From contig NC_015554.1 in NCBI RefSeq assembly GCF_000213655.1, positions 868,001 through 932,000 on the forward strand: a stretch of 64,000 nt of DNA, read 5' to 3'. The notes under the pieces are model-generated. The model did not search any database, had not been told where the DNA came from, and saw only the letters and a list, made by a program, of their open reading frames with translations. Shown here in pieces: positions 28,601-44,655 of this stretch. Positions within the stretch are counted from its first letter, which is position 1. Each line of letters begins with the position of its first letter. This DNA is from Alteromonas naphthalenivorans (GTDB taxonomy: Bacteria; Pseudomonadota; Gammaproteobacteria; Enterobacterales; Alteromonadaceae). The position numbers were made by a program, and so were the translations under genes.

Positions 28601-28950
28601 TTGTTCCACCAATGTTGTTTTCCATATCGACGAGTAACGCCTTCGCCACCCACAACAAATACATCTTCATACCCATCTTGATTGAAATCTATGACACATA
28701 CACCTGAACCCATTGCATCTTTGATACCGGATAGCTTTTCAGTGCGCTGAATATGTTTGAACATGATGCCCTTTACAAAGGCTGATTCTACAAATTGAAC
28801 AGGCGTTTGCTCAGTTTGAAAATTGATAGGATTTACTGACTTGGAGGTTGTCGAAAAAGTAAAATCAAAAATGAGATTTAGTGATAAACAGATAACACTT
28901 ATCAATCCAAAGGTAGGTAGTACTTTGATATTAAGAAGAGCTTTTTTCAC
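25603..28950 (-). CDS. CRTAC1-like FG-GAP/UnbV exported protein with long helical C-terminus
   Basis: A 1115-residue protein with an N-terminal signal anchor (LPTFGLISVICLSLNLIF). Residues about 75-500 carry FG-GAP/VCBS calcium-loop repeats (DFNQDGYEDVFVVGG, DLNDDGYPELVYG, DHNLDGKQDILVANF, DLNNDGREDFIIAKG, DFDNDGKLDYAVNNN), predicting a beta-propeller. An ASPIC/UnbV segment follows (QRRVHFGLGQFESNVSLKV). The final ~500 residues are mostly helical with HEAT-like spacing and match nothing I recognise. It faces the pentahaem cytochrome gene tail to tail with overlapping 3' ends, suggesting a functional pair. Substrate and role are unknown. Confidence 0.82.
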   Translation of the reverse strand: MKKALLNIKVLPTFGLISVICLSLNLIFDFTFSTTSKSVNPINFQTEQTPVQFVESAFVKGIMFKHIQRTEKLSGIKDAMGSGVCVIDFNQDGYEDVFVVGGEGVTRRYGKQHWWNNPTGSKLYQNIAGQYFTDVTTLAGEAQLPGGYGCAVGDLNDDGYPELVYGKTNELILLTNINGKTFSRSTIGEIPKPYWPLSITIWDHNLDGKQDILVANFLDYENDIKIGNQEYGYETDSQFNAENYNGLRNAILLNSGTQANTPTPLFETLQLSSYDRTLSIIPKQIIAGNKSASSGYYIANGSGSNSDFIGFGDNQSSDLFTKLLSFKKSPNVQLSSIKVSDKTALLFIPFGGGSTQLHLAGEQVNKDRAWQLFATSDKDASVQSWGAIVEDLNNDGREDFIIAKGNAEPHIDTPYVPVGNVNSGRLQIANGRFESTLFSQFPTLKRSSRGIASADFDNDGKLDYAVNNNNGALSLYMNRTDTNNNWISFTCQPINLCNLVEFTLNTESNTQLATKTLVKPQPFLSSSQRRVHFGLGQFESNVSLKVTGPDNKNIFENLALNNIYQLSLAQGKIDIISKKTRSHTDSIEAGHYNFFAYIDLPVNELIPALSQTIDPSLSSLLTFARQLNHDKFVTVKTSQARSQEVITLISWLFNQMQRFPPSQQRGELYAMLIELISKTESDLFVEHLDYLIRSLPEPQFCQLTDNLNYWFWEEEVAPLNKPVLKSQLLHRALRTPFESETICALHALSASEDPTIGASLMAFLRQDQQNQHASNALIASVIRTIGFLKYRKALAPLAQICSNVNEPVLKAECVVTLTKLDVKPGRIKSIVERTENDELVFRLHTDRLVLQNVFGPTITTESDPTKTSWVSTYLNSTLFSHFSIAHTIDIVSAATEQDKLRAISQLNRLRSEKDIERIILKMNQLGLPLSEDYSQLLLEHYPEQSWFIPYLTLQSLQSFFENQDLNQYSPAFRSAISKECRIRASLTEYCKQRFEPDMKYLRSGFSAILEDNPMALSYLMQSDSKVKKRVVINQLARAARNVHKEGLTEQSPQLTRIFEFLYLQHSYTGVSTNQVNNVWIASFIRYAQAKGYVLDSQWRQHYVLASKKTTDSLVL

Positions 28951-29224
28951 AACAATCCTTGTTTTTCAATAAACTGTAACACTTTACGGGGAAGATGCCT
29001 TTAACGAAAGTCTATTCCGTTCACAGAATAGCAACAAGAAAAAAGAATATTCTTTACTTGAAAAAGTGACAAGTGTAATATTTACCTGTTGGTGTGAAAA
29101 ATATACAATTTCTAGTGCTTTACTCATACGTCGATGATTTGCACTAGGTCTTAAGGTTCATGAAATACGACCCCGTGGGTGCAGGCTGGGCGTAATTTGT
29201 ACGGAAAAAATAATAACAGAATGG
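28951..29224. promoter_or_regulatory. Divergent upstream region with two dyads
   Basis: Between the CRTAC1-like and PEP-CTERM genes are a perfect 14-bp palindrome AAAGAATATTCTTT (29042-29055) and an inverted repeat CTATTC, 8-nt gap, GAATAG (about 29011-29030). Their shared GAATA core suggests binding sites for one regulator. No confident -35/-10 pair is visible. Confidence 0.4.
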
Positions 29225-29890
29225 ATGCGGTTTATGGAAAGCAGTAAAATAACTAAAGCCTGTATTGTGCTTTTATGTCTTGTGCAATCTCTCTTTTTTA
29301 GTACGGCAGCACTTGCGACCCTAATTAATAATGGTGATTTTTCATCAGGACTGAATGACTGGAGCGACGCGAGTTTCACTGGCTCAGTGACAGAGAATGA
29401 CGGTCAGGCTATTTTATCATCAGGTGATAATACTGACCCGTTTGCAGCCGTCCTAATACAAGGTGATGATGGAAGCTTCCTTTTTGATTCTCCAATCATG
29501 GTTGACCCTAATGTATCAATGTTAAGTGTCGATGCGGCGCTACTAAGTATGCTTTTTGATCCAACAGAGCAAGGCGGCTCTGCTTTCAGTGACACGCTTT
29601 TTTTGGCAATTTATGATGCGGTTGACTACACCTTTGATGCTGTGTTTGAAATTCCTGCACTTGGAAATGTAGCTGAAACCTTCTTATTTGATATGAGTGA
29701 TTGGTTAGGCCGAGGAATTGCCATCTCATTTGAACTTGCCGATGAAGATGATGGTTTTAATCTTTCCTACTCAGTAGACAATGTCCTCTTTACTTACAAT
29801 AACACGCCGGTGCCTGTGCCGGAACCAGAGTCCTTCATTATGTTACTCGTTGGCCTCACGCTGTTAGCTCGTTGTCGCAAGTCTGCGTAA
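29225..29890 (+). CDS. PEP-CTERM sorting-signal protein
   Basis: A 221-residue exported protein. A signal peptide (about residues 10-32, ACIVLLCLVQSLFFSTAALA) precedes an acidic beta-rich domain beginning LINNGDFSSGLNDWSD, typical of carbohydrate-binding-like PEP-CTERM proteins. The C-terminus carries the PEP-CTERM signal: VPEPESF, a hydrophobic helix (IMLLVGLTLLA) and a basic tail (RCRKSA). Such proteins are processed by exosortase and linked to exopolysaccharide. No exosortase gene is in this window. ATG 29225 and ATG 29234 are both possible starts and neither has a strong ribosome binding site. Confidence 0.85.
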   Translation: MRFMESSKITKACIVLLCLVQSLFFSTAALATLINNGDFSSGLNDWSDASFTGSVTENDGQAILSSGDNTDPFAAVLIQGDDGSFLFDSPIMVDPNVSMLSVDAALLSMLFDPTEQGGSAFSDTLFLAIYDAVDYTFDAVFEIPALGNVAETFLFDMSDWLGRGIAISFELADEDDGFNLSYSVDNVLFTYNNTPVPVPEPESFIMLLVGLTLLARCRKSA

Positions 29891-29983
29891 ACAAAAAACA
29901 AATTTATTATAGGGGCTAATTAGGTCCTTTTTAAGGAAGACGCTCGTTCTTTTAAAAGATCGAGTTATCAGGGAGATAAAAGT

Positions 29984-32900
29984 TTGAACACGGTTAAGTC
30001 ACTACTTTTCATATTCGTTTGTTCGGTTGCTGCTTTACTCGTGAACGTAGGTAAGGCGAATGCGCAAGCGAATTCAGATGGTTGGGTAAAAGATACAAAT
30101 ATAGAAGTAAGCTGGAATAACCCAACACGTAGTAGGCGCTCACCCGATGCTACCGTTACGGCACAAATCACAAACAATAGTGATGAACCGATACACGGCC
30201 CGGTCCGCTTTGTTATCGAATCGCTTACGCCAGCTACTATATCGGTTGGCAATGCTGACGGCGAGTTAGGCGAACTGGACTATGTTGTAGCACTTCCGCA
30301 AAACCAGATACTGGAACCCGGTCAAAGCTTGACGGTTGGTCCCATCACTATTGTTGGTGGGCGCAGCAGTTTCGATATCAGTGGCTCTGCCTATGTTCAG
30401 GTATCATTAGAGCCTGTAGCACTGGAAGTGGATATCCTTTCACCCACCACGTTGTCCACCTTTGGAAGTTCGCCAGTAAATGTTACGGGTACTATTAATC
30501 AGGAAAATGCGGAATTAACATTAAATGGTGCAGTCATTGCGCATGATGGCAAACAATTTAGTGCCAATGTTGAACTAATCGAAGGATTTAATACCGTCGT
30601 AGCACGAGCGACCAATGCAAGTGGTGAGCAAACAACCGATTCTATTTCTGTATCACTGGACTTAACCCCTCCTTACATAACAATCGAATCTCATACAGAA
30701 GCACAAGAAGTTTACAGTGACAAAATAACTGTAACAGGCCTAGTTAATGATATTGTGCGCGGAACCGTCTCTGAAGAACAGGCAACGGTTGAAGTTAATG
30801 GCATTAAAGCGACCGTGTCTAACCGTAGCTATGCCGCAACGGATGTGCCCTTAAACGAGGGCGAAAATGTTCTTACGGTTACCGCTATCGATGAATCAGG
30901 CAACAGCGCATCTATATCGCAAAAAGTTATCTACAAAATTGCAACAGATAAACGCTTAGTATTGGTAAGTGGCCAAAACCAGACTGCACAAATCGGCAAT
31001 AAACTACCTGAACGACTAATTGTAAAATTGGTTGATGGCTCTGATGCGCCAATCGCAGATGCAACTGTTGTTTTCAGGGTAACGCAAGGTGCGGGAATTG
31101 TTGGCAGCACGCCAGAAACATCCGGCCGAGCTATCATTGCGACGACTGACGCTGAAGGTATGGCGCGCACTGAATTTCAGGTGGGCTATCGCACAGGTGT
31201 CGCTAACCATAAGGTTCGCGCTAAAGTTGTTGGGGTTGAAAACGAGGTTGTTTTCCCTGCTTCAGCAACCAGCGTAACGGGCGACAAAATCAGCGTTAAC
31301 TCAGGTAATAATCAGCGTGGTGTTGTAGGACAAACCTTACCAGCTCCGTTTGTTGTTGCAGTAACAGACAGTGGTGCCAATGTAGTGCAAGGAGCACGTG
31401 TACGATTTGATGTGATTAAAGGCGAGGGTGCTTTCCAAAATGAAGAAAGCAGCTATGAAACCTCGACCGACAGCGATGGTCGTGCGTCGGCGCAACTTAC
31501 TTTAGGTTCACTTACGGGCATAGATGCCCAGCGCGTTGAAGCTGTATTGATTGACTCGCTTGAGGGTATGGATTTATTGGCAGGTTTCTCTGCGACAGCA
31601 TTTGTACCAGCAGACGCCGGAATCACTAGCGTAAGTGGTGTTGTACTGGACAATCAAGACAAACCTTTGCCCGGTGTGACGGTGCGTATAGAAGGCACAG
31701 ACAGGACCGCATTTACAGATCAACAAGGTCAGTTCACTGTTAATCAAGCGCCAGTTGGACCGGTTCATTTAATCGTGGATGGCTCAACCACGACTGCTTT
31801 TGGTGAGTATCCGACGTTAAGCTATCATATTGTAACCGTGTCAGGTGTGGACAACCCACTTTCTGGCCCGATCTACATGGTCAAACTAGACACAGATAAT
31901 GGTGTGTATGCGGGTAAAGAAGACGTAGTACTTACTCTTGATAACTTCCCAGGATTTAAACTGGAAATCGCAAAAGATTCAGTGACATTCCCAGACGGTT
32001 CGCGTGAAGGGATTATTTCAGTCACACCTGTAAATGCTTCAAAAGTACCAATGGCGCCGCCCAATGGCATGCAACCTCAATTCATCGTAACAATCCAGCC
32101 AGTTGGCGCGACCTTCTCTCCTGCTGCGAAATTAACGCTACCTAATGTAGATGGCCATGCGCCAGGTGCACAGGTTGAAATGTATTCTTTTGATCACGAC
32201 TTAGAAGAATTCGTAGCTATAGGTTTGGGTACAGTTTCGGAAGATGGCTCAGTTGTTTCATCCAACCCTGGTGTGGGTGTTGTGAAAGCAGGCTGGCACT
32301 GTGGTTCACAGCCGGGCGGTTCAGGTACAGCCCACAACTGTCCAGAGTGTCAGAAGTGTCAAGGCAGTTCATGTGTAAGAGATCCTGCACAGGATAATAA
32401 ACCTCGTTCTCAGCAGACGCCAGAAGATTGTAAAACACAGTTGTGCAAGGGCTCTAAACCAAATCCGGGCGACATTCCGGTAAGTGCAGATGTGAAATAC
32501 GATTGCAAAAAGCCAGGGTGCGATGGGGAAAATCCAATTTTTGATGTTCCAGATGATGGAGATATATCTGAAGACGACAAAAAGTGCGGAATGTGCTCTG
32601 GCGGTGAAAAAGTGCCAGATGAAAGTAAGAATAAACAGGAATGTGGTGACGGTTCCGATGCTAAAGCGTGTTACACCTGTAAAGATGGAAGTTGTGGAAA
32701 CCATTGCGAAGCAAGTAATGAAAAAATAACAAAGTCCATTGAGGTAAAAGGCGATCACCCTTTGTTAAAAGGACTTGATGTTTTAAACAATGGTATGCCG
32801 TACGCAAAGCTTGAAATGAAAGGTTCATTTGCATTAAACGAAGAAAGTGGTGAAAAGTGCTGCAAAGATTGCTCTATTGGCAAAAACCCGAAACCATACA

Positions 32901-33451
32901 CTAAAACCGAATTAAAGGGCTCAGGTTCACTGGAAGCGACCTTTATTGTTCCTGGACTAGGCCTATTGTATAAGTTGCCAATCAAAACCTATGGCCCAGT
33001 TAAACTAGGTGGTGAGGTTGAGTTTGGGCCTGGTGCGAAAGGTAATTTAGGTGTTTCTGCATCTGGTTCAACAGAAGAATCAGAGTGTGACCCAGAAACG
33101 TGCGGTTTATTGAAGCTCGGAACCTCAGGGTCGCTAGCTTTAGGTGTTTTTGCAAAGGTCGCAGGCGCGGTCGAATACTGTAATATTTTTAATGAACAAG
33201 ACTGTGACAAATTAATTGCAGGTGAAGCTGAAGCTTCATCAACTATTAATGTTGGTGCTTCTGCAGATTACAAAGACTATAAAGGTGAAAAATGCACCAG
33301 CTCTGATTGTTATAGCTATAGCTATGGCAAAGCGGAGTTTAAAGCAAATGCTCAGTATAAAGTTGAAGTAGGTGGGTTATATAAATATCAATATCAAAAC
33401 GAAGTTTCAGTAACTTTTGGTGAGGCTGGTTCAGGAGGTACGTGTGGATAG
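29984..33451 (+). CDS. large exported Ig-like and Cys-rich protein
   Basis: A 1155-residue protein from TTG 29984 with GGGAG eight bases upstream. Order: signal peptide (to about residue 27), N-terminal beta domain, two bacterial Ig-like domains (DILSPTTLSTFG, TIESHTEAQEVYSD), two invasin/Big_1-like domains (about 320-545, PIADATVVFRVTQGAG, VVQGARVRFDVIKGEG), a carboxypeptidase-regulatory-like domain (SGVVLDNQDKPLPGVTV), a ZU5-like beta domain ending VGVVKAGWHCG. A Cys-rich stretch follows (16 Cys between about residues 770 and 905), then a Gly-rich beta C-terminus with 10 more Cys. No anchor is visible. It heads a six-gene run ending in a DsbC-like gene. Resembles the non-toxin part of some Rhs-type proteins, but has no YD repeats. 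Confidence 0.8.
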   Translation: MNTVKSLLFIFVCSVAALLVNVGKANAQANSDGWVKDTNIEVSWNNPTRSRRSPDATVTAQITNNSDEPIHGPVRFVIESLTPATISVGNADGELGELDYVVALPQNQILEPGQSLTVGPITIVGGRSSFDISGSAYVQVSLEPVALEVDILSPTTLSTFGSSPVNVTGTINQENAELTLNGAVIAHDGKQFSANVELIEGFNTVVARATNASGEQTTDSISVSLDLTPPYITIESHTEAQEVYSDKITVTGLVNDIVRGTVSEEQATVEVNGIKATVSNRSYAATDVPLNEGENVLTVTAIDESGNSASISQKVIYKIATDKRLVLVSGQNQTAQIGNKLPERLIVKLVDGSDAPIADATVVFRVTQGAGIVGSTPETSGRAIIATTDAEGMARTEFQVGYRTGVANHKVRAKVVGVENEVVFPASATSVTGDKISVNSGNNQRGVVGQTLPAPFVVAVTDSGANVVQGARVRFDVIKGEGAFQNEESSYETSTDSDGRASAQLTLGSLTGIDAQRVEAVLIDSLEGMDLLAGFSATAFVPADAGITSVSGVVLDNQDKPLPGVTVRIEGTDRTAFTDQQGQFTVNQAPVGPVHLIVDGSTTTAFGEYPTLSYHIVTVSGVDNPLSGPIYMVKLDTDNGVYAGKEDVVLTLDNFPGFKLEIAKDSVTFPDGSREGIISVTPVNASKVPMAPPNGMQPQFIVTIQPVGATFSPAAKLTLPNVDGHAPGAQVEMYSFDHDLEEFVAIGLGTVSEDGSVVSSNPGVGVVKAGWHCGSQPGGSGTAHNCPECQKCQGSSCVRDPAQDNKPRSQQTPEDCKTQLCKGSKPNPGDIPVSADVKYDCKKPGCDGENPIFDVPDDGDISEDDKKCGMCSGGEKVPDESKNKQECGDGSDAKACYTCKDGSCGNHCEASNEKITKSIEVKGDHPLLKGLDVLNNGMPYAKLEMKGSFALNEESGEKCCKDCSIGKNPKPYTKTELKGSGSLEATFIVPGLGLLYKLPIKTYGPVKLGGEVEFGPGAKGNLGVSASGSTEESECDPETCGLLKLGTSGSLALGVFAKVAGAVEYCNIFNEQDCDKLIAGEAEASSTINVGASADYKDYKGEKCTSSDCYSYSYGKAEFKANAQYKVEVGGLYKYQYQNEVSVTFGEAGSGGTCG

Positions 33452-34607
33452 CACGAGAATTTTTAAAGCTTTATTTTTTTGTATTTTCTTAAGCTCATAT
33501 TCAATTGGTGCATTAGCAGAGCAAAAGAGAACCTCATTTATTTTGGCCGAATCGCCCAGAGGTGAGGTTTCAGTTGCTGGTAGCATTGTTGTAGATAATT
33601 TGTTTCATAAAACTCAACTGTCGTTGAATGAGAGCGATACTAAAAACAGTATTCAAACCTTATCTAGGTATTACACACTTGCGAAGGAAAACGACAAGGC
33701 AAAGTTGCGAAAGTTGTCGTATGTTAAAGATGGTTCTTATTCTTGGATGAGTAGAGAACTGAATAATATCCCTGATAAATTCGAGGGGTTTGCTAAGTTG
33801 CGAAAAGCTGATGCCACTCACAAATTGTTTTGGGGAGATTACGAACTTTTTATTGTTGATTGGTTCACCGAAGCTCCTCAGAAAGTTATGAGCTGGTACG
33901 AGGCGGTTATATGTGCAGAAAATAGCCAATGCCACATCAGCAATTTATTGCTTAATGGGAAAACTTCGAGTTCTATCTTCTCCAGTGTGCTTACAGATGT
34001 TTACGCTAAGCCACTAAAAAAAGTGCCAAACCTGCCATACTCTGTTAGCTATAGACCCAAGCCAATTAGTGATTCTAATCAAAATGCGCTCGTTTTTAAT
34101 TTTGAAGTTGAGTGGTTGAACGAGCCATTGAACTTTAATGCAGATAAAAAAAGTAAACTACAAGATAAGAATGTTCAGTTCACACATTTAGAGTCATTCC
34201 TGAGAGAACTTTGGGCTGTGCGCGGAGATACAGTAAAAAGAATAGTTAAAGAAAAGACATATAAAACGTCTTTAGATGCCCATTGGCTCGATTTTTCTAC
34301 GAGAAATCTTATTCCTGTGATAGATCCTCGCTTGGGTTATAGCCTAAGCAACTACACGCCTGTTGCTTATTTGGACAGGTTGTCCAAAATTGATGAAGTG
34401 AAAGTTGAGGGTGTACTTCATGCTAGAAATGAAATGTACGTCATCATTACTGCTTCACTACTAAATCAACAGCAGTTAGTTATTATTACTTTGGATCGAA
34501 AAACTAAAAAACTAAAACAAACACCAAACAACTTTAAACTTCAAGAGATTGTTAATTCTCCAGAGTTTTATAGAAAAATGGCTTCTATCGTTAATAAGAG
34601 AGCTTAA
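33444..34607 (+). CDS. exported protein of unknown function
   Basis: A 387-residue protein I do not recognise. The track-independent start is GTG 33444, with AGGAGG five bases upstream; it overlaps the previous gene by 8 nt, so translation is coupled. A signal peptide is clear (IFKALFFCIFLSSYSIGALA). The mature part is mixed, Lys/Ser-rich, with few Cys (the ICAENSQCHISN pair), and no repeats or catalytic motif. The bases here are AT-richer than in the flanking housekeeping genes. Tight coupling says that it acts with the Ig/Cys-rich protein, possibly as chaperone, anchor or secretion partner. That is inference. Confidence 0.75.
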   Translation: MDSTRIFKALFFCIFLSSYSIGALAEQKRTSFILAESPRGEVSVAGSIVVDNLFHKTQLSLNESDTKNSIQTLSRYYTLAKENDKAKLRKLSYVKDGSYSWMSRELNNIPDKFEGFAKLRKADATHKLFWGDYELFIVDWFTEAPQKVMSWYEAVICAENSQCHISNLLLNGKTSSSIFSSVLTDVYAKPLKKVPNLPYSVSYRPKPISDSNQNALVFNFEVEWLNEPLNFNADKKSKLQDKNVQFTHLESFLRELWAVRGDTVKRIVKEKTYKTSLDAHWLDFSTRNLIPVIDPRLGYSLSNYTPVAYLDRLSKIDEVKVEGVLHARNEMYVIITASLLNQQQLVIITLDRKTKKLKQTPNNFKLQEIVNSPEFYRKMASIVNKRA

Positions 34608-34609
34608 AT

Positions 34610-35176
34610 TTGAAAGCGGGCGACGAAATTGATGCTACAGGCAACCTAGTTGCTTCTAGTTATTGCAACGCCAAATTGAACATAAATAAAGATGTAGTCG
34701 CTATCACTCCTAACCTCAGAAGTTATTTGTTTGAATGGGGATTACACATATTTTGTTGGACAGTGTGCATATTTATGTCGGTTAAAGTTTGGCAGTTGGA
34801 GCCAAACCTTGATTCGAAAACCGAATTCGTTATTGTCGTGTTTACACTGGGGGGACTCTTTAGTTTAGGTACGGCCTTTATATGCAGAAGAAGCAGAAGA
34901 AAATTCTATTTTGACCTAAACGAAAGAGTGCTGAATGTCGGCAGTTCGAATAGCCCGAAAACTAAAGTTGCTTTTGATTCGTTTGAAAAGCTTCTGCTTG
35001 TTACAACTCGAATATATAGTACTGAGTCGCCACTCACTTGTTTTGAACTAAGCGTTCTAACCAATAACCAAAAAAGAGTTGTTTTAATGTATCACAGTGA
35101 TTATCACCAAATCCAAAATGATTCAGATGTACTCGCTGAAATACTGGGATTAGAAGTGGAAAGTCTAGAGGCTTGA
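34610..35176 (+). CDS. small two-helix membrane protein of unknown function
   Basis: A 188-residue protein starting at TTG 34610, two bases after the previous stop, with GAGAG upstream. There are two adjacent membrane helices (about residues 45-65, GLHIFCWTVCIFMSVKVW, and 73-92, FVIVVFTLGGLFSLGTAFI). A cytoplasmic beta-rich domain follows (RRKFYFDLNERVLNVG, FDSFEKLLLVTT), reminiscent of bacterial PH-like domains in small membrane proteins. No enzyme motif is seen. Position inside the run suggests an inner-membrane component of the same system. Confidence 0.7.
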   Translation: MKAGDEIDATGNLVASSYCNAKLNINKDVVAITPNLRSYLFEWGLHIFCWTVCIFMSVKVWQLEPNLDSKTEFVIVVFTLGGLFSLGTAFICRRSRRKFYFDLNERVLNVGSSNSPKTKVAFDSFEKLLLVTTRIYSTESPLTCFELSVLTNNQKRVVLMYHSDYHQIQNDSDVLAEILGLEVESLEA

Positions 35177-35282
35177 CACCACCAATAATTAGTTTTGCTC
35201 ACATTAAAATGATTGCAATTGCAGTAAAGTTGCTTGTTTAAGTTAACCAATATACACCACAATGAGTGTCGCAGGGATAGAG

Positions 35283-38200
35283 ATGAGAAAGGGACAATTA
35301 AACTTACTTTTACTCACTGGTTTATGTTTTTCAGCATTTTTTCTCAAGACTAATGCAACAGAGCTTGATAAAAACTGTGTCATAAATATTTTAAATCGTA
35401 CCATTCAAGTAAGTGAAGATGGTGGCTGGGCTTTACCAAACGTTCCTTCCAATATGGGGCAAATCAGAGCCAGAGCGACCTGTAAACTGGAAGATGGCCG
35501 CACCGTCTCTGGTCAAAGTGATTATTTTAATGTGGTACGTAACGGCATTACAAAAGTTGGTGATATCAAGTTTGAAAAATTGGATCCTATCCCCGTATCA
35601 TTGCGTTTTTCGACAACGGATACGCTCCTTCTAGACAATCCAAAACAAACCTTCCCTTTAACCGTCACTGGTTTTTTTGCCGATGGCAGTGTAGATGACT
35701 TAACTGCAGGGGACAAAGGAACAAACTACTCAAGTACAAACGAGACGATTGCTTCTGTTAGTACAGACGGTGTGGTTACAGCTAGAGCTAATGGTGTTGC
35801 ACTCATAAGTGCTAGGAAGGATGGCGTGCTAGCAAGCCGTCGAGTAGAAGTCAGAATCGGTGGCGATATGGATTCAGACGGAATTCCGGATGATGCAGAA
35901 CGTGCGCTTGGACTTAATCCAAATGACCCAATTGATGCGTTAGAAGATCACGACAACGATGGGTTATCGGCGCTCGAAGAGTATCAGGCGGGTACCAACA
36001 TTTTTGAAGCCGACACAGATGGTGATGGTCTTACTGATTTAGAAGAACTTACTGGTGGAACGAATGGTTTTGTTACTAATCCGCTTTTAGCTGACTCCGA
36101 TGGAGATGGTATTTCTGATGGACTGGAAATAGCCGGTGGTTCAGATCCGAATGATTCAGAAAGCGGCAATTTGACAGACTATCTTGATTTCATAACGGTA
36201 TCCCCAGAGAACTTACTCCTAACTTATAATGCCATTGATGGTGAAGCTAGCGGCAAGCTTTCTGTCACAGGCTACATGCTTGACGGCACTTCTGTAGATT
36301 TAACTCAGCAATCTAGTGGTACTCGCTATACTACCGACGATATAACCATTGCTAACTTCGGCTTATCAGACGGCGAAATTTTTGCGGGTCAATCAGGCGA
36401 AACGACAATAACGGTGACCAACCGTGACGAGAGTTTCGTTGTTAATGTGACGGTGACTCAGTTCGATCCAGTTGTGCAATCTACGGTGTCTATTCCGGGC
36501 TACGCAAATAATGTCGATATTCAAGGTAACTTAGCTTATATAGCCGCTGGCGATTCTGGGCTGCAAGTGATTAGCGTCGTAGATACCTTGAATCCTGAAA
36601 TCATTGGAAGTGTAGATACACAGGGTATTAGCATCGATGTTAAAGCAGTTGGATCCTACGCTTATTTGGCTGACGGTTCTGAGGGTGTGCAAATAGTAGA
36701 TATATCTGAACCTGAAAACGCGAAAATTGTATCAAAACTTGACACTGCTGGCACTGCGCAAGACTTATCGGTAAAAGGAGACTTCGTTTTTGTTGCGGAT
36801 GGCTCTGCCGGTATCGAAATATTCAATGTTGCGAATCCTAACAAACCTTTTGCAATTGGTTCTACCGAACACCTTACCGATGTAAAAGGTATTGCTGTAG
36901 AAAACAACTTTATGGTCGCCGTGGGTGGAACAACGTTATCCTTATTTGATATTGAAGACCCATCAGCGCCATTACACCTTTCTTCGGTTAATATCGGCAC
37001 AGTTAAAGACGTCGAAATCAGTAATGAATATGTTTATGTTGCAGCTTACAGCACTGGCTATCGTATTTATAAGATCACGGATGCTGGAATGTTGGAACTC
37101 AAAGGCGGAGACAGGACCTTCGTTCCACGCGATGTTGCGGTGACAAATGGCTTTACCTTTTTTGCTGAGCAATTATTCCCAAATGTTGTTGCTTATGTGA
37201 ATACTAAAAATCCTGACGAACCATTCTTCCAGGATACGATCAATCTTTCTCCTTTAGGTGATTACGCAGGTACCGGTATTGCGCTTAACGCAACCCATGC
37301 TTTTATTACAGAAGAAAGATATGTTGTGGGCTCAGACTACAAAGCGACGGGCGATACGAAACTGTTTATCGCGCAATATAGAGAGCTAAACGATGCGAAT
37401 GGAATACCTCCAACTGTCTCGCTAGTTGAGCCTGCAACAGACGGCGTTACAGTTGAAGGTGCAAGACTAACGTTAACTGCAGATGCACAGGATGACATTG
37501 CCGTTGGCAAAGTCGATTTTTATGTCAATAATTTGCTCGTTGCACAGGACACTACCTATCCGTATTCCGTTCCTTTCACTGTTCCTCAGAATGTTGGAAA
37601 TATTGCGGTTAAAGCAGTAGCAACAGATCTGGGCTCTAACAGTACAACAACGGTTACCGTTACGCTTGAAGTGCAAAATGATGAAGACGGTGACGGTCTC
37701 GGTGATGAAGAAGAAGCTAACACCTGGATGACGGACGCCAATAACCCTGACACCGATGGGGATGGTCTGATAGACGGGGAAGAAGTAGCGCGTGGGATTA
37801 ACCCTAACAATCAGGATTCCGATGGCGATGGCAGAAAAGACGGCGATGAGGTTGCAGCAGGTACCGACCCAGCGAACCCCGATATTATTGCGCCTACCAC
37901 AGTTGCAACTGAGCCGACTACTGATGAAACTGAGGTGGCGGAAAACAGTGCTATTATTGTTACTTTTTCAGAGGCTCTATCGCGTAAGTCTGTCAACGCT
38001 AATTCTATCCGTGTGTATGGAGACGGTGGAGTACCAGTTCCGGGTAATGTTAAGTTAATTGGCGGTGATACGCAGGTATTGTTTACGCCTAATGCACTAA
38101 TGGCAGATTACACAGTGCATGAAGTTGTTATCGGTATTGTAAAAGACACTGCAGGTAATCCGTTGGCACAAGAACAACGGTTTACTTTCGAAACCGGAAA

Positions 38201-41200
38201 TACTGTTGATACAGTTAGACCAACTGTTAGCAATATTAACCCAGTTCACAACGCAAAAGACGTTCCCGTTAATATTGCATTAACTGTGGTGATGAGTGAA
38301 CGGATCGACCCGGAAAGTGTAACCAGTGATAGCTTCTATATCGAAGATAACTCGACAAGGGAACGTATTGAAGGGTTAATAGATGTTAAGGACGATAGCA
38401 CGACTATCACTTTTACCCCTAATGCGGCGTTTCTTGTAGGAAGGCAACACAGAATATATTTGAGAAGTGGAATTAAAGACCTCTTTGGTAATTCCATGTC
38501 TAACCGTAATTACTATTTTACTACAGCGTTTGATGCTGATGGTGTTGCTCCACTGATCAGTAGTATTAGTGTTAATGAAGGAGAAACATCTGTACCTGTT
38601 AATGCCAGGTTGAATGTGAGGTTTGATGAAGCGATAAACAGCTATTCAACTAAGAACATACAACTCTTTAAGAGTGATGAAATTGTTGCAGTAGACCTTA
38701 CCAATAGCAGTGATCTGCGCACAGCAACCTTAAAGCCTAAGTTAAACTTGGAGCCTGAGACAGGCTATACCCTAGTTGTTGATGGTATTTCTGATCTTAG
38801 TGGTAATCTGCTTGAATCTGCACAATCAACTTCTTTCACCACAGGTACTCAAACTGATACACAAACAGGGTCATTGATGAGTTACAGCCCGAAAAGTGGT
38901 GCAACGGACGTGGCATTGAATGCGACGATTACGGCAGACTTCAGTGAGCGTATTGACCCGACATCACTGACCAGTGAGTCATTCAGGTTGTATAACAATA
39001 CGGAAAAACGCAATGAGGCTGCGACATTGAGCCTAAGTGCAGACGGTAAGCGTGTGACGTTAACCCCGGATGTATTGTTAGAAGAAGGGCATCATTATTA
39101 CGTGTATATCAGTTGGGGTAGCTACCTGAAGGATATCGCAGGTAATAACGTGGGCAGTTATCATCAGTATACGTTTACGGCAGGTGTCAGTGAAGACGCG
39201 CAGGCGCCGAGTGTGATAGCAAACAACCTGTCGCAAGGGTTAACGGATGTGCCAGTGAATGCCCCGGTGAGACTGTTTCTGGATGAGACGTTAGCGGCAC
39301 ACTGTGTGAATGAGGAGACGGTATCGCTCCAAAATAGTACAGGTACAGTATCGGGCAGTGTGGCACTGAGCAGTGATCGCAGAACGATTACGTTTACGCC
39401 GGATGAATATCTGGTGGCGGGTGAAGATTATGAGCTACTTGTTGCGGGTGTGTGTGATGTAGCGGGTAATGAAGTTGCTGAGTATCGCATGGACTTCACA
39501 GCCGATAGTAGCGGCAGTGTTGATACTGCCTACCCAAGAATAAGCAGTGTTACACCGACAAACAATACATCAGATGTATCAGTTAACACAGCGATTGTGG
39601 TGACCTTTAACGAAGCAGTCGATGCACTAAACATTAATGATGCAGTGCGAGTTCAGGTGAATGGCCAAAGTGGTTATGTAGCGGGTGACTATCAGGTAGA
39701 AGGCAGCGTGGTGACGTTTACGCCAAGTGAGCCATTACCGGGTAGTACACAAATCAGAACAAGTATTTACTACGTCAAAGATAGAGTTGGAAATAGTGCA
39801 TGTTGTTGGAATTATTACTTCACAACAGAAGACGAGCTTGATACTACGGCACCAACCGTAAGCAGTATCAGTCCGGCAGACGGAGCCATGGATATAGGAG
39901 TAGGTACGCCAATCGTACTAAGCTTCAATGAATCGTTAAATGCAGCTACGGTCAACAGTAATCACTTCAAGTTATATTCAGAGGGCAGCATTATTACGCC
40001 GAGCGTTTACCGCTCTGCAGACAGTAAAACAATCACCTTGCGTGGCACCTGGCCAGCCGGAAAGTCACTGTCAGTAATCGTCACGGACGATGTGCAGGAC
40101 TTAAGCGGTAATGCAATGGCGGATTATGTCAGCCTATTTAGCACAGCAGTGGTAGATAATGACAACGGTAGGCCAAGTGTCTCACGCCTATACCCGAACA
40201 GTGGTGCCAATAATGTACCGAGTGTTGGCAGTATAGTGATGTACACCTCAGAGCCAATGGATGAAAGTTCCTTACATGATGCTTTCCATGTAGCGGAAAA
40301 CGGTGTACTGGTAGAGGGACAGATTACGCTGTCAGCATCAGGTCAGGCAATCGAATTCACACCGGATGAAGCCTTTGTAGAAGGTGCACTCGTTCATGTT
40401 TATCTGGATAGCACAGCGCGTGATGATTCAGGTAATGCGATGAACCATTATCAAGGTCAGTTCCGCATGGCGACAACTACGGCAACAGCAGGGGTGCGAC
40501 CAACGCCTAATGCTTATCTGCCAAGTAACGGTTTAACCAATGTGTCGCTAAATCCGAGCATGCGTATCGTTTATAACCAAGATATGGATGAGACTACCAT
40601 TACTGATGAATTCATTGTGATGCGCAACAATGATGGCAGTGCCTTTCCGGCTACGATAAGTCTGGCAGATGATTTACGTACAGTGGAAATCACGCCGCAA
40701 TCACTCTTATCGGCTGACAGTTACTATTATGTGAGTCTGTCAAGTAACATTCTGGATACAGATGGTGACCGTCAGTACTGGAGTCGCAGTTATGGCTTCA
40801 CCACAGGTGAAGTAGCGGTAGAAGACTTGCAGGCCCCACGAGTAACTGCGATGAGTCCGGCAACGGGAATGGAAAACGTGGCATTGAATCCGCGTTATCA
40901 CGTGCGCTTTGATGAAGCGATTAACCCATACAGCTTCGAACGCATAGCAGATATGAGTATCTCGTACAGTGCAAGTAATACCGAAGTGTTGTACCACCGT
41001 TACTCACCATTATCAGAGAGTACGGAACACACAGAAACAATTACACAGGTAGAAGACTTGTCGGGCAATAAAGTTGTTTCACACAGTGAAACCTTTACAA
41101 CCGGAACAGGACCAGACCTGACCAGTCCGAATTACAGTACTTATTTACCCTACTCGAACAGTACAGTTGCAGTAAATAGTAGTGTGATCTGGGTAATGAA

Positions 41201-42752
41201 CGAGGTTGTTGATCCACTCACGGTGAACAGCAGCACCGTATATGTACGAGATGTAAACAATGGTTCGGTTCATGTCGCGGGTAGTGCCAGTATTGGTCAG
41301 GATGGCAAGACAATAACTTGGGTACCAGACAATGTACTGACAGCAGGTCGACGGTTTAATGCACGGCTCGGCGGTGTGGCGGACATCAGTGGTAATACAA
41401 ACTCATCAGATAGCTTCTACTTCTATACCAGTTTGGAAGAAGATACAGCAGCACCAGTTGTAACAGGCACATCAGTGCACGAAGGCTTAACCGACGTGGC
41501 GGTAAATGCCCGAGTGAGAGTGAAGTTTAGTGAAACGATAAGTCATTTATCACTGGGTGGCATTACCCTGACTCATAACGGTGAGCAGATTGCGGTAAAT
41601 CGTGCACTGGATAGCTCACATGCGCTGGTCACGCTCACCCCGGTGACCCTGCTTCCGGCGGGTGAGACGCTAAGCTTGAATGTAAGCGGTGTGAAAGACC
41701 TGGCAGATAACGTGCAGGTAGAAGACATCAATATCAACTTCACAACAGAGCTGGGTATCGATACACAAACAGGGTCATTGATGAGTTACAGCCCGAAAAG
41801 TGGTGCAACGGACGTGGCATTGAATGCGACGATTACGGCAGACTTCAGTGAGCGTATTGACCCGACATCACTGACCAGTGAGTCATTCAGGTTGTATAAC
41901 AATACGGAAAAACGCAATGAGGCTGCGACATTGAGCCTAAGTGCAGACGGTAAGCGTGTGACGTTAACCCCGGATGTATTGTTAGAAGAAGGGCATCATT
42001 ATTACGTGTATATCAGTTGGGGTAGCTACCTGAAGGATATCGCAGGTAATAACGTGGGCAGTTATCATCAGTATACGTTTACGGCAGGTGTCAGTGAAGA
42101 CGCGCAGGCGCCGAGTGTGATAGCAAACAACCTGTCGCAAGGGTTAACGGATGTGCCAGTGAATGCCCCGGTGAGACTGTTTCTGGATGAGACGTTAGCG
42201 GCACACTGTGTGAATGAGGAGACGGTATCGCTCCAAAATAGTACAGGTACAGTATCGGGCAGTGTGGCACTGAGCAGTGATCGCAGAACGATTACGTTTA
42301 CGCCGGATGAATATCTGGTGGCGGGTGAAGATTATGAGCTACTTGTTGCGGGCGTGTGTGATGTAGCGGGTAATGAAGTTGCTGAGTATCGCTTGGCGTT
42401 TACCACTGAAAACACGGGTGTAGTGGATAATTCTTACCCAACCCTTACAGCTATGACGCCAGCACATAGCTCAACAGGCAATGCGGTTAATGCGCCTATC
42501 GAGATGACTTTCAGTGAGCCACTTGATATTAGAAATATTACGTCTAATCATTCAGGTGGTGAGATTCGAATTTATTCGGGGTCAAATTATTACGACGGTT
42601 TTTTCTCATTCAATGGTGATGTCGTTACCTTTTGGCCGACCAATCCGTTGCCGCAAAATACGCAAATTACGATTTATTTACGATATATTAAAGACCGCGT
42701 TGGAAATTCATATTGTTGCAGAAGTTATTCGTTCACAACGCAAACCTTGTAA
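35283..42752 (+). CDS. giant repeat protein with 15 Big_5-type Ig-like domains
   Basis: About 2489 residues. ATG 35283 is preferred over 35262 because AGGGATAGAG precedes it and a signal peptide follows (LNLLLLTGLCFSAFFLKTNA). Order: beta domain; Big_2-like domain; thrombospondin-3-like Ca loops (DMDSDGIPDD, DTDGDGLTDLEE, DSDGDGISDGLE); second Big_2-like domain; LVIVD-type propeller repeats (GLQVISVVDT, GVQIVDISEP, GIEIFNVANP); bacterial Ig domain; second Ca-loop cluster (DTDGDGLIDGEE, DSDGDGRKDGDE); then 15 Big_5/SbsA-type domains of about 105 residues. Domains 4-5 and 13-14 are nearly identical in DNA. Ends in FTTQTL with no anchor, barrel or LPXTG. Probably a secreted or surface adhesin-like fibre; binding partner unknown. 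Confidence 0.85.
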   Translation: MRKGQLNLLLLTGLCFSAFFLKTNATELDKNCVINILNRTIQVSEDGGWALPNVPSNMGQIRARATCKLEDGRTVSGQSDYFNVVRNGITKVGDIKFEKLDPIPVSLRFSTTDTLLLDNPKQTFPLTVTGFFADGSVDDLTAGDKGTNYSSTNETIASVSTDGVVTARANGVALISARKDGVLASRRVEVRIGGDMDSDGIPDDAERALGLNPNDPIDALEDHDNDGLSALEEYQAGTNIFEADTDGDGLTDLEELTGGTNGFVTNPLLADSDGDGISDGLEIAGGSDPNDSESGNLTDYLDFITVSPENLLLTYNAIDGEASGKLSVTGYMLDGTSVDLTQQSSGTRYTTDDITIANFGLSDGEIFAGQSGETTITVTNRDESFVVNVTVTQFDPVVQSTVSIPGYANNVDIQGNLAYIAAGDSGLQVISVVDTLNPEIIGSVDTQGISIDVKAVGSYAYLADGSEGVQIVDISEPENAKIVSKLDTAGTAQDLSVKGDFVFVADGSAGIEIFNVANPNKPFAIGSTEHLTDVKGIAVENNFMVAVGGTTLSLFDIEDPSAPLHLSSVNIGTVKDVEISNEYVYVAAYSTGYRIYKITDAGMLELKGGDRTFVPRDVAVTNGFTFFAEQLFPNVVAYVNTKNPDEPFFQDTINLSPLGDYAGTGIALNATHAFITEERYVVGSDYKATGDTKLFIAQYRELNDANGIPPTVSLVEPATDGVTVEGARLTLTADAQDDIAVGKVDFYVNNLLVAQDTTYPYSVPFTVPQNVGNIAVKAVATDLGSNSTTTVTVTLEVQNDEDGDGLGDEEEANTWMTDANNPDTDGDGLIDGEEVARGINPNNQDSDGDGRKDGDEVAAGTDPANPDIIAPTTVATEPTTDETEVAENSAIIVTFSEALSRKSVNANSIRVYGDGGVPVPGNVKLIGGDTQVLFTPNALMADYTVHEVVIGIVKDTAGNPLAQEQRFTFETGNTVDTVRPTVSNINPVHNAKDVPVNIALTVVMSERIDPESVTSDSFYIEDNSTRERIEGLIDVKDDSTTITFTPNAAFLVGRQHRIYLRSGIKDLFGNSMSNRNYYFTTAFDADGVAPLISSISVNEGETSVPVNARLNVRFDEAINSYSTKNIQLFKSDEIVAVDLTNSSDLRTATLKPKLNLEPETGYTLVVDGISDLSGNLLESAQSTSFTTGTQTDTQTGSLMSYSPKSGATDVALNATITADFSERIDPTSLTSESFRLYNNTEKRNEAATLSLSADGKRVTLTPDVLLEEGHHYYVYISWGSYLKDIAGNNVGSYHQYTFTAGVSEDAQAPSVIANNLSQGLTDVPVNAPVRLFLDETLAAHCVNEETVSLQNSTGTVSGSVALSSDRRTITFTPDEYLVAGEDYELLVAGVCDVAGNEVAEYRMDFTADSSGSVDTAYPRISSVTPTNNTSDVSVNTAIVVTFNEAVDALNINDAVRVQVNGQSGYVAGDYQVEGSVVTFTPSEPLPGSTQIRTSIYYVKDRVGNSACCWNYYFTTEDELDTTAPTVSSISPADGAMDIGVGTPIVLSFNESLNAATVNSNHFKLYSEGSIITPSVYRSADSKTITLRGTWPAGKSLSVIVTDDVQDLSGNAMADYVSLFSTAVVDNDNGRPSVSRLYPNSGANNVPSVGSIVMYTSEPMDESSLHDAFHVAENGVLVEGQITLSASGQAIEFTPDEAFVEGALVHVYLDSTARDDSGNAMNHYQGQFRMATTTATAGVRPTPNAYLPSNGLTNVSLNPSMRIVYNQDMDETTITDEFIVMRNNDGSAFPATISLADDLRTVEITPQSLLSADSYYYVSLSSNILDTDGDRQYWSRSYGFTTGEVAVEDLQAPRVTAMSPATGMENVALNPRYHVRFDEAINPYSFERIADMSISYSASNTEVLYHRYSPLSESTEHTETITQVEDLSGNKVVSHSETFTTGTGPDLTSPNYSTYLPYSNSTVAVNSSVIWVMNEVVDPLTVNSSTVYVRDVNNGSVHVAGSASIGQDGKTITWVPDNVLTAGRRFNARLGGVADISGNTNSSDSFYFYTSLEEDTAAPVVTGTSVHEGLTDVAVNARVRVKFSETISHLSLGGITLTHNGEQIAVNRALDSSHALVTLTPVTLLPAGETLSLNVSGVKDLADNVQVEDININFTTELGIDTQTGSLMSYSPKSGATDVALNATITADFSERIDPTSLTSESFRLYNNTEKRNEAATLSLSADGKRVTLTPDVLLEEGHHYYVYISWGSYLKDIAGNNVGSYHQYTFTAGVSEDAQAPSVIANNLSQGLTDVPVNAPVRLFLDETLAAHCVNEETVSLQNSTGTVSGSVALSSDRRTITFTPDEYLVAGEDYELLVAGVCDVAGNEVAEYRLAFTTENTGVVDNSYPTLTAMTPAHSSTGNAVNAPIEMTFSEPLDIRNITSNHSGGEIRIYSGSNYYDGFFSFNGDVVTFWPTNPLPQNTQITIYLRYIKDRVGNSYCCRSYSFTTQTL
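38856..39488 (+). repeat. 633-bp internal duplication, copy 1
   Basis: Encodes Big_5 domains 4 and 5 of the giant protein. It matches 41760-42392 at a constant offset of 2904 bp. By eye the only difference is T at 39449 against C at 42353, which is silent (Gly codon GGT/GGC). Flanking domains are related but clearly diverged, so this is a recent conversion or duplication event. Confidence 0.95.
41760..42392 (+). repeat. 633-bp internal duplication, copy 2
   Basis: Encodes Big_5 domains 13 and 14 of the giant protein, nearly identical to 38856-39488. The identity stops sharply on both sides (after GAGTATCGC on the right), with diverged but homologous domains following each copy. Confidence 0.95.
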
Positions 42753-42770
42753 GTCGTTTAAGGAAAGACA

Positions 42771-43202
42771 ATGGAAACAAAAAAAAACAGAGTCATAGTA
42801 GTAAGTGTCGGTGTCTTAGCTATAGCGGCACTGGGTTACCTGTTTTTCAGCGAAAATAGTGAACATAGCGAAAATCTGCAATCACTTGCTGGTAATGAAA
42901 AATTTGATGAACAGTCCATAGATAAGAACAGGGATAGTAATATCGTAAATGTTCCTGTGGAGTATCCTGATTATCGTCCGAAAGTTGCAGAACAAAATGC
43001 GAGTGCTAGCACCGAGAAGAACAACGCTAATGTCGATGCTATGCTACAGGAATCTGAAGAGAAGCTTGTTGCAGCTATTACTTCTTTCAACGATGTACTA
43101 GATGATCCAACAGCGCAAAGAGAAATAATAGAACAAAACCAGGAAGCACGTGAAGCAAAGAAAAAGGCTATCCTGCAGAAGCTAAAGAATGGAGACTTGT
43201 AG
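42771..43202 (+). CDS. small membrane-anchored protein of unknown function
   Basis: A 143-residue protein with AAGGAAAGACA before ATG 42771. One N-terminal membrane helix (VIVVSVGVLAIAALGYLFF) anchors a charged, probably periplasmic, region with a disordered linker (SENSEHSENLQ) and a Lys/Glu/Gln-rich helical end (NQEAREAKKKAILQKLKNG) of coiled-coil character. No Cys and no known domain. It lies 18 nt after the giant repeat gene and just before the thioredoxin-like gene, so it likely belongs to the same complex. Function is not known. Confidence 0.7.
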   Translation: METKKNRVIVVSVGVLAIAALGYLFFSENSEHSENLQSLAGNEKFDEQSIDKNRDSNIVNVPVEYPDYRPKVAEQNASASTEKNNANVDAMLQESEEKLVAAITSFNDVLDDPTAQREIIEQNQEAREAKKKAILQKLKNGDL

Positions 43203-43206
43203 CAGT

Positions 43207-44085
43207 ATGAAGTACCTAATACTCTTTTTAAGTATTTTGTTGGGGTATAGTGGTTTCGCTAAAGCAAATGACACAAACGAACTAAACGCAAAAATAATCC
43301 CTACCCCAGAGGTTTATAGTGACTTTTTAATAGAGCCTTGGAAACCGAGTGCACCCAGCGTAATTGTGTTTAAAGATCCCAATTGTGGTTATTGCATTCG
43401 TGCACTGAAGGCGCTAGATAAATACAAAGACTACAATGTGTTTATGTTTTGGTCTCCGATCTTGGGTGATTACAGTGACAAACGTGTTGCAGCTATTATG
43501 GAGTGTGATGATCCGATTAGTCAGGGCGTTTTTGATGACGTTATTACTCGCAAGCCAATTGAATGCAAAAGTTCGGATGCCCTCAACCACGAACATTTTA
43601 GGTTGCAACAACTGAATAAAGAAATTGTTCAAAATTACAACCCTCAGTCAGTGCCTTCTTATTATTTCGGCGGGCAAAAAGTATATCTGAGCTCGTTGAA
43701 AAAGTTCAAGCAACAACTCACCAATGGTATTACACCAGTACAACTGGATTGGGCACGATATGAAACATTGCGTTTAAAACAGAGTGGAAATCAAGGGTTA
43801 GCTAACGCAATCCTATTTGTATCTAATGAGTTGTCTACCAATAAGAGTCTCATTTCTTCACTGGAAAATGACTTTCGTTACAACTGGCATCTTGCGCAGA
43901 GTACTTGTGAAAACAAAAATTGTACAAAAGACGAAGAATCAAATCGCTCGGCAGAGCTGAGACTATTAATGGATGTACCAGAAGGTGCTCAAATTGCTTT
44001 AGCGATCGATGGTATGGTTATTCAATCAGAACGCATCAACCAATATCTAAGCAATGACTCTATTAATGCGATCAATGTTCTTTAG
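43207..44085 (+). CDS. periplasmic DsbC/DsbG-like thioredoxin-fold oxidoreductase
   Basis: About 292 residues from ATG 43207 (an upstream in-frame ATG at 43189 overlaps the previous gene; the signal peptide MKYLILFLSILLGYSGFAKA begins at 43207). The thioredoxin fold has the active site NCGYC in VIVFKDPNCGYCIRALKAL, and the cis-Pro loop SVPSYYFGGQ, as in DsbC/DsbG-type disulfide isomerases. Two more Cys (MECDD, IECKSS) may form a structural disulfide as in DsbC. The C-terminal ~90 residues are extra. Last gene of the run headed by a 26-Cys C-terminal exported protein, which is its obvious candidate client. Confidence 0.85.
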   Translation: MKYLILFLSILLGYSGFAKANDTNELNAKIIPTPEVYSDFLIEPWKPSAPSVIVFKDPNCGYCIRALKALDKYKDYNVFMFWSPILGDYSDKRVAAIMECDDPISQGVFDDVITRKPIECKSSDALNHEHFRLQQLNKEIVQNYNPQSVPSYYFGGQKVYLSSLKKFKQQLTNGITPVQLDWARYETLRLKQSGNQGLANAILFVSNELSTNKSLISSLENDFRYNWHLAQSTCENKNCTKDEESNRSAELRLLMDVPEGAQIALAIDGMVIQSERINQYLSNDSINAINVL

Positions 44086-44110
44086 TTAATCTGTCCTAGC
44101 TCGGACCTGA

Positions 44111-44148
44111 TCTGACAGTTCCCCAGTGTTTCTAGGGGCATCGTCAGA
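44111..44148. repeat. Interrupted inverted repeat at the IS remnant end
   Basis: TCTGAC (44111-44116) and CCCC (44121-44124) pair with GGGG (44135-44138) and GTCAGA (44143-44148). It lies just outside the transposase fragment stop and resembles the terminal region of an IS481-type element. It could also act as a transcript-ending hairpin for the upstream run, although no T-run follows. Confidence 0.45.
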
Positions 44149-44154
44149 TTAGAT

Positions 44155-44412
44155 TTAAGCTAAATTATTTTCAGCCCAATTCTGTTTCCCACCAATTAAT
44201 TTTTCCATTGGCGTTCTGCCACAGCATATTTTCCCTTGATGAGATTGTTCACTATTGTAATAATTCAGCTACTCGTATATATCTTTCTGCAACATCTCCA
44301 GCGAATCATAAATTTTCTTGCCGGATGTGACCGGATAAAACTCGTTGAGATTGGTTTTGTGGAAGCGTTCACAGATCCCATTAGTCTGTGGATGACACTC
44401 TATTGATAGAAT
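44155..44412 (-). pseudogene. IS481-type transposase, 3' remnant
   Basis: Minus-strand translation gives the C-terminal part of an integrase-core transposase: HPQTNGICERFHK (containing the last Glu of the DDE triad), LNEFYPVTSGKKIYDSLEML, then YNSEQSHQGKICCGRTPMEK and a stop at 44155-44157. An in-frame TAG interrupts it after LQKDIYE. Upstream similarity fades and a stop occurs beyond about 44525, so most of the gene is missing. It resembles IS481-family transposases. This dead element sits at the right end of the accessory block, next to iscR. Confidence 0.8.
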
Positions 44413-44655
44413 ATGACTCAATTCTATCGGCACGATATGATTACCAAGAGAAATTTGCTCGGGAGTGAAATTGCCACCTAACTTGGTAATTAAACTAACC
44501 CAAATAAACGCATTACCCGCGATCGGCTATATTAGGTGCTTAGATAGAAAAAAATACGAGGCTGCTAAAACACTACGGCTTGGCCCCTCGCCCATGCTGC
44601 GTGAGCATTCCAGATTCGTTAGAAACCATTCCTGCTTTGGAATGGAAACGACAAA
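44413..44655. other. Non-coding stretch between IS remnant and IscR sites
   Basis: No supported gene. A plus-strand frame through here (44465-44746) runs across the iscR promoter and has no family-like features. A dyad CCATTCC, 6-nt gap, GGAATGG lies at 44626-44645, about 10 bp upstream of the first IscR-type site, and may be an operator. Its role is unknown. Confidence 0.4.

Follow-up and report, generated by a model that had tools for sequence, protein, structure and literature searches.

The window analysed here is a stretch of 64,000 nucleotides from Alteromonas naphthalenivorans (contig NC_015554.1, positions 868,001 to 932,000), and the subject of this work is a run of six genes within it, denoted p1 to p6. 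As judged from comparison of homologous sequences, p1 is a polymorphic protein, in which a conserved backbone is followed by a Cys-rich linker and an exchangeable C-terminal tip. The locus is probably a polymorphic-toxin-type system, a reading to which we assign a probability of about 0.68. An initial annotation of the six genes had proposed a self-contained surface fibre assembly; it missed the exchangeable tip of p1, a feature that gives the locus a different meaning. Its description of the genes themselves is confirmed: the six are co-directional, with the gaps, the 8-nucleotide (nt) overlap and the domain content that had been reported. The main elements, in window coordinates, are the following.

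29984..33451, plus strand: p1, 1155 amino acids (aa), TTG start; exported immunoglobulin (Ig)- and carboxypeptidase-regulatory-like backbone (residues 1 to ~860), Cys-rich linker and variable C-terminal tip (~936–1155).
32726..35372, plus strand: exchanged segment, comprising the p1 tip, p2, p3 and the first p4 codons; the stretch that does not align between the window and Alteromonas marina (locus L040).
33444..34607, plus strand: p2, exported, 387 aa from GTG 33444; fast-evolving family with two invariant Cys (alignment A2, 11 sequences).
34610..35176, plus strand: p3, two-helix membrane protein, 188 aa; a DUF3592-type protein takes its place in L040.
35262..42752 (alternative start ATG 35283), plus strand: p4, exported TSP3/LVIVD/Big_5 protein by Pfam; the constant neighbour of p1.
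42771..43202, plus strand: p5, 143 aa, one N-terminal hydrophobic segment; a small open reading frame (ORF) at the equivalent place in 6/6 loci.
43189..44085 (alternative start ATG 43207), plus strand: p6, thioredoxin-like with CGYC; a homologue lies 3' of p4 in 6/6 gammaproteobacterial loci.

The p1/p2 overlap is 8 nt when p2 starts at GTG 33444. The gap between p2 and p3 is 2 nt, and that between p3 and p4 is 106 nt with the p4 start ATG 35283, while p5 and p6 overlap by 14 nt with the p6 start ATG 43189 and not at all with ATG 43207.

Exchange of the p1 tip

The Pfam families found in p1 are Glucodextran_B (two stretches) and CarboxypepD_reg, with Big_1 slightly under its cut-off, and the N-terminus looks signal-like by eye. 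The protein has 27 Cys in total, of which 26 lie within residues 771–1155, in agreement with the number first reported for the C-terminal third. The tip looks beta-rich when the sequence is read by eye, and five Cys are invariant in 14 aligned members of its family.

Comparison of p1 with the homologue P0006 and with that of A. marina L040 locates the end of the conserved part. The identity is 94–100% at residues 560–809 and 88% at 810–859, and then falls to 72% at 860–909, 34% at 910–959 and 14–26% past residue 960. The homologue P0001 retains 74–100% identity to the window p1 along the entire comparison. At the DNA level, the window and L040 are 86.4% identical over positions 23500–32725 and 88.4% identical over 35373–38875, with no alignment between; the unaligned 2.65 kb corresponds to the p1 tip, p2 and p3.

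A protein search with the window tip in the query returned at least 1092 significant homologous proteins among 7990 candidates scored, and 120 of these 1092 matches were listed. Tips and backbones were compared among 122 proteins (the 120 listed matches, the window and L040), giving 7381 pairs that are not independent of one another. Backbones are at least 85% identical in 216 of the 7381 pairs; among these 216, the tips are less than 30% identical in 134, 30–50% identical in 25 and at least 50% identical in 57. Shuffled tails give a mean identity of 24.8% with a 95th percentile of 30.1%, and the tips below 30% sit at about this level. By iterated profile, 116 of 167 tails belong to the window-type tip family, a share that is biased upward because the window tip was in the search query. 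The tip is single-copy in the window genome, where no displaced backbone–tip modules were found. Between the window and genome G805, the ratio of nonsynonymous to synonymous substitution rates (dN/dS) is 0.44 for the tip, 0.45 for the linker, 0.14 for the backbone and 0.04 for the cytochrome of the same locus.

Toxin-type tips and tandem modules

Other tips on the p1 backbone resemble known toxin or enzyme domains. In L174 (G564) an RHS and pretoxin HINT tip is followed by two small genes and then by p4, and RHS tips were also found in L056, L057 and L065, the first two beside p4. A PLA2G12 tip lies above the cut-off in L063, again beside p4, and below it in P0048, P0057, P0062 and P0087; among the 167 tails, CxxHDxC occurs in 10. 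Outside the window family, 8 tails have the HExxH motif, one tail being common to L045 and P0108, and such tips lie beside p4 in L045, L071 and L072. Peptidase_M15 tips in L055 and L074 were found below the cut-off only.

Locus L171 (G766), on a 5.9 kb contig without p4, contains two displaced backbone–tip modules in tandem. Over the 200 N-terminal residues of the shorter module the two are 96–100% identical, and in the tips 22–30%. An exported protein comes after each module, one of 200 aa and the other of 214 aa, with 31.8% identity between them. L055 has a second backbone piece of 650 bp, now split over two frames, which shares 89% identity with the first and bears another tip; the protein encoded after each tip has a hydrophobic segment at its C-terminus. 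In L023, a displaced tip piece and a small membrane-protein-like gene (by eye) adjoin a cytochrome remnant. Tandem module arrays are known from polymorphic toxin systems.

A self-contained fibre at the cell surface, with a constant structural function, would account for the presence of large Ig-rich exported proteins and a Dsb-like enzyme within one conserved cluster. It is nevertheless very improbable, since the tip, p2 and p3 are exchanged while the flanks stay, and since enzyme-like tips are carried on the same backbone.

ORFs of 2092–2812 aa in L176 (G577), G619, G541 and G554 contain the conserved domain pair of p1 at 28–36% identity; that of L176 has an RHS-type C-terminal end by eye, and these ORFs look like a wider RHS branch of the p1 backbone. 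The p1 homologues P0020 and P0021 are labelled by their source as choice-of-anchor A family proteins of Vibrio vulnificus. A ZU5 autopeptidase domain, hinted at in the accessible part of PMC3482391, is at most a lead: the single weak match (PF00791, expect value (E) 0.074) is in L072, and ZU5 is not among the 25 families listed, of 44 in all, for alignment A3.

p2 and p3 as probable partners of the tip

No Pfam family above the cut-off was found in p2 or p3. The p2 of L040 belongs to the same broad family as that of the window, with 18% identity (alignment A2), and the DUF3592-type membrane protein at the place of p3 has no detectable similarity to p3. An NTF2-like fold for p2, an idea that came from reading the sequence, was unsupported by Pfam and PDB searches. 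Of 15 loci with a tip of the window family, 12 have a two-helix gene of 130–200 aa between p1 and p4, compared with 1 of 15 other loci (Fisher p 1.2e-4, for loci that are not independent, four Catenovulum being among them); the strict hydrophobicity cut-off of this count missed the p3 of the window and of L050. Loci with other tips have different genes between p1 and p4, or none. Because p2 and p3 change together with the tip and are tied to the window tip family, they fit a cognate pair of the tip, with a putative immunity or chaperone role.

Alternatively, the window tip family may be a variable adhesin or recognition domain, serving attachment or kin recognition, or diversified against phages, with p2 and p3 as assembly factors that are exchanged because they must fit the tip. 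In keeping with this, the window tip has no enzymatic motif and matches no known family, many p1 N-termini among the homologues carry adhesive domains (lectin or discoidin types, for example), p2 and p3 occur mainly alongside the window tip family, and the Cys-rich tips would suit a stable extracellular domain. However, an adhesin does not readily explain the RHS and HINT, PLA2-type and HExxH tips at the same backbone position beside p4, or the tandem modules of tip and small gene, which are typical of effector–immunity arrays. We regard this alternative as unlikely but serious.

Recurrence of the locus

When named genomes were scanned with the C-terminal 550 residues of p1, a query that did not include p4, 41 loci were found. 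In 29 of these the arrangement is readable, meaning that p1 ends inside the contig and is followed either by p4 or by at least 5 kb; seven loci are too short, among them L062 with 4.5 kb and no p4, and five have a p1 that is cut by the contig end. Downstream of p1, p4 was found in 26 of the 29 readable loci; in L045 it is known from a short piece at the contig end. Homologues of the cytochrome and/or the ASPIC protein are present at 14 of the 41 loci and absent from 18 others that extend 6 kb or more upstream, the remaining 9 not reaching far enough. In all six gammaproteobacterial loci with a readable p4 end (L049, L139–L143), p4 is succeeded by a small ORF and a p6 homologue. Seven other loci in which the p4 end is readable and the contig continues for at least 2 kb gave no p6, namely L060, L066, L071, L074, L075 and L077 (acidobacterial bins) and L072 (a bin labelled Proteobacteria).

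An even sample of 369 genomes of the class was searched for the p1 domain pair and for the p4 N-terminus. The p1 pair was found at E 1e-10 in 12 genomes, the window's included, and the p4 N-terminus in 24. Five of the 24 p4 matches start at query residue 8 or earlier and cover at least 184 of 300 residues, and all five are among the 12 genomes with p1; the other 19 start only at query residue 133 or later, mostly in the TSP3 region. Taxon labels of the p1 loci include Gammaproteobacteria, Mariprofundaceae, Deltaproteobacteria and Acidobacteria, and many are metagenome bins. The recurrence of p1–p4 in many taxa and of p4–p5–p6 in gammaproteobacteria is more than chance. To this extent the recurring system proposed initially is supported; the same six genes in order as a unit are not, as p2 evolves fast, p3 is replaced between otherwise near-identical loci and no p6 was found in the seven loci named above.

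Three loci (L068, L076 and L079) belong to a single metagenome bin whose label, Klebsiella pneumoniae, is doubtful because they resemble loci of other phyla. In L022 (G057, contig 7), an uncharacterised protein of 325 aa and, by eye, a DsbA-like lipoprotein come after a p1 relative, and ORFs resembling transposases lie close by.

Constant partners p4, p5 and p6

Pfam matches in p4 are Big_5 (15 stretches), LVIVD (3), TSP3_bac (4) and Big_7. Two 637-bp copies within the gene, at 38856–39492 and 41760–42396, are 99.7% identical, and the open frame in G805 has at least 2969 codons compared with 2496 in the window; these near-identical copies and the longer frame suggest a recent change in the copy number of the Ig-like repeats. 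No Pfam family above the cut-off was found in p5; in the six loci its position is taken by a small ORF of 136–162 aa, with sequence similarity only in L139. A role of p3 or p5 as anchor or exporter, also proposed at first, found no support.

The Pfam family Thioredoxin_2 matches p6 at its cut-off, and the CGYC motif is present. The earlier assignment as a DsbC/G-like enzyme agrees with the thioredoxin-like character and, weakly, with partial matches in the PDB to disulfide interchange proteins including DsbC (best E 4.7e-4). It fails at the NCBIfam models, where p6 scores 16 bits for DsbG (cut-off 124) and 12.6 bits for DsbC (cut-off 215).

Comparison with known systems

At the family level, the locus appears to have the features by which the polymorphic toxin class is recognised in sequence. 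A conserved N-terminal part is joined to an exchangeable C-terminal domain; tips of known toxin type occur on the same backbone at the locus (L174 and L063, with Peptidase_M15 below the cut-off); a presumed cognate gene lies directly downstream and is exchanged with the tip (p2 and p3, and the tandem pairs of L171); and displaced backbone–tip modules are present in L171 and L055. The window's own tip belongs to no known toxin family.

The polymorphic toxin systems described in 2012 (PMC3482391, accessible part) share with this locus an exported protein with a conserved N-terminal part and an exchangeable C-terminal domain, as well as tandem modules with small downstream genes. The RHS and HINT, PLA2-like and metallopeptidase-like domains listed there are also found as tips here. 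In contrast, the p1 backbone with its partners p4, p5, p6, the cytochrome and the ASPIC protein is not described in that part of the paper, and the window tip falls in no known toxin family. The VARTIG modules of Thermococcales, likened to polymorphic toxins in the accessible part of PMC8416519, also consist of a large Ig-domain protein with a hypervariable C-terminus and varying downstream genes, but they are archaeal and the likeness is one of description only. The TANFOR polymorphic toxins of Bacteroidetes (PMC7073777, accessible part), again compared by description only, likewise form a class whose defining feature is a large, conserved N-terminal domain; both this domain and the phylum are different. 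For L057, an RHS-type member of the locus family, the best structural matches are RHS structures of the type VI secretion system (T6SS). The window p1, however, has no RHS domain, and the genome has no match to Hcp (other T6SS families were not searched), so that p1 does not appear to be a T6SS RHS effector.

Bacterial teneurin-like proteins (PMC13018210, accessible part) have a similar general order to p1, with adhesion domains, a transthyretin-like domain, a further domain, a polymorphic C-terminus and a small downstream gene. Five of the 24 members of alignment A3 touch the teneurin transthyretin model (best E 0.072, none above the cut-off), and one L171 module reaches E 0.0065, still below the cut-off. 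Identity with these proteins was nevertheless rejected and is scarcely credible, as p1 lacks the defining FN-plug, NHL and YD-shell superfold. FN-plug matches were found in 17 of the 369 class genomes (15 over the cut-off) and not in the window genome, and 16 of 21 matches were inspected, several of them ending at contig edges. The p1 conserved-domain profile, which found p1 homologues at once as a positive control, matched none of these 16 loci. Only Ig-type stretches matched there (p1 residues 125–314 in L094, L095 and L101; p4 residues 712–806 in L103), and the loci contained no cytochrome homologue, no ASPIC homologue and no p4 core. Genome G458 encodes an FN-plug protein as well as a p1–p4 locus, the two being on different contigs.

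Proposed mechanism

If the locus is a polymorphic-toxin-type system, p1 would leave the cytoplasm by Sec, as its signal-like N-terminus suggests, and would be displayed at the cell surface together with p4, which is consistent with their linkage and the adhesive-type domains. The 26 Cys and the gammaproteobacterial linkage suggest that p6 may form or correct the disulfides of the linker and tip. The tip would be an effector that is delivered to competing cells and acts on the envelopes of neighbours, with p2 in the periplasm and p3 in the inner membrane as a cognate immunity or restraint pair, in keeping with their exchange and likely location; this placement of p2 and p3 in turn suggests that the window tip acts on the cell envelope. 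Together, p4, p5 and the Dsb-like p6 would be constant accessory parts. The genome has three secretins, and type II export is a possible candidate route for p1; it also has one exosortase match (C1:827019-827762).

Several results weigh against this reading. The window tip has no match in Pfam, in NCBIfam, in PADLOC or among solved structures; new toxin families are usual in polymorphic toxin systems, so that this lowers the claim and does not exclude it. The window and L040 tips fall within one broad profile family, so the exchange swaps divergent relatives and not unrelated folds, and dN/dS between the window and G805 is above 1 for no part. In L049, L057, L072 and L074 there are no genes between p1 and p4, and thus no immunity gene at the expected place, and three of the 29 readable loci (L069, L076 and L079) have no p4. 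As first reported, no known secretion gene accompanies the cluster: Pfam and NCBIfam gave no dedicated secretion-system family in p1–p6. The zero Hcp matches in the genome, mentioned above, point the same way.

A more far-reaching version is that p1, p4, p5 and p6, the five-heme cytochrome and the ASPIC protein together make up a contact-dependent delivery platform that is undescribed and lies apart from the polymorphic-toxin routes known so far. In this version p4 would be a common carrier for RHS and non-RHS tips, a redox chain (the Dsb-like p6, perhaps fed by the cytochrome) would arm disulfide-locked tips, and the Cys-rich window tip would represent a new family of effectors, countered by two immunity proteins, one in the periplasm and one in the membrane. 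We consider this combination rather unlikely. No description of a p1–p4 locus was found in the literature, as judged by title and the start of the abstract, in a search that most subscription papers lay outside, and the accessible part of PMC13018210 states that the delivery of teneurin-type surface toxins in bacteria is still unexplained. As a constant partner, p4 may serve as a sequence-searchable marker for a class of polymorphic effector-type loci. With natural tip-exchange pairs such as the window and A. marina, delivery, immunity and disulfide maturation become directly testable, and the family of the window tip, with its defined pair of partners, would be new either as an effector family or as a recognition family.

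Genomic island and neighbouring genes

On sequence comparison, the six genes are the right half of a larger recurring locus, in the order five-heme cytochrome, FG-GAP/ASPIC, PEP-CTERM, p1, [p2 p3], p4, p5, p6. The first three of these genes had been left out of the initial annotation. The additional features are the following.

23218..44655, no strand: genomic island of ~21.4 kb between cysE and iscR, delimited by flank comparison with relatives.
23607..25625, plus strand: multiheme cytochrome, 672 aa, five CxxCH motifs; Cytochrome_C554 above the cut-off; homologues at other p1 loci.
25603..28950, minus strand: FG-GAP/ASPIC protein, 1115 aa; FG-GAP_3 and UnbV_ASPIC above the cut-off; homologues at other p1 loci.
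29225..29890, plus strand: PEP-CTERM protein, 221 aa; PEP-CTERM above the cut-off; homologues upstream of p1 in L035, L040, L049 and L054.

PADLOC defence families gave no matches at E 0.01 for p1, p2, p3, p5, p6 and the cytochrome, p4 being left out. Promoter-like sites (34, compared with 32.1 in shuffles) and terminator-like sites (13, compared with 14.6) did not indicate operon limits.

The window genome is a single contig of 4.97 Mb, and the locus is, from its flanks, an island of ~21.4 kb at an often-occupied site, because the flanks are contiguous in relatives and a different insert is present in G808. In G804 and G810 the positions that match window 23218 and 44655 are separated by only 36 bp, and in G032 the left flank stops at 23144, with 119 bp between there and 44655. 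Loci were obtained by IscR search from 29 same-genus genomes besides the window's, out of 57 others that had a match. In 12 of these 29, cysE lies 109–233 bp 5' of iscR, in one it lies at 1267 bp, and in 15 it is outside the 1.5 kb upstream of iscR. The remaining one is G805, where p6 is present at 97% identity and the locus is collinear with the window from inside the cytochrome gene to iscR. Full-length p1 was found in 0 of 35 other same-genus genomes, the best matches (E 9e-8 at most) being single domains. The G808 insert (L146, L147), of ~22 kb between the cysE and iscR homologues, contains by eye Tns-type transposition genes and a 1360-aa ORF, and is preceded by a 167-aa ORF with YD-type repeats.

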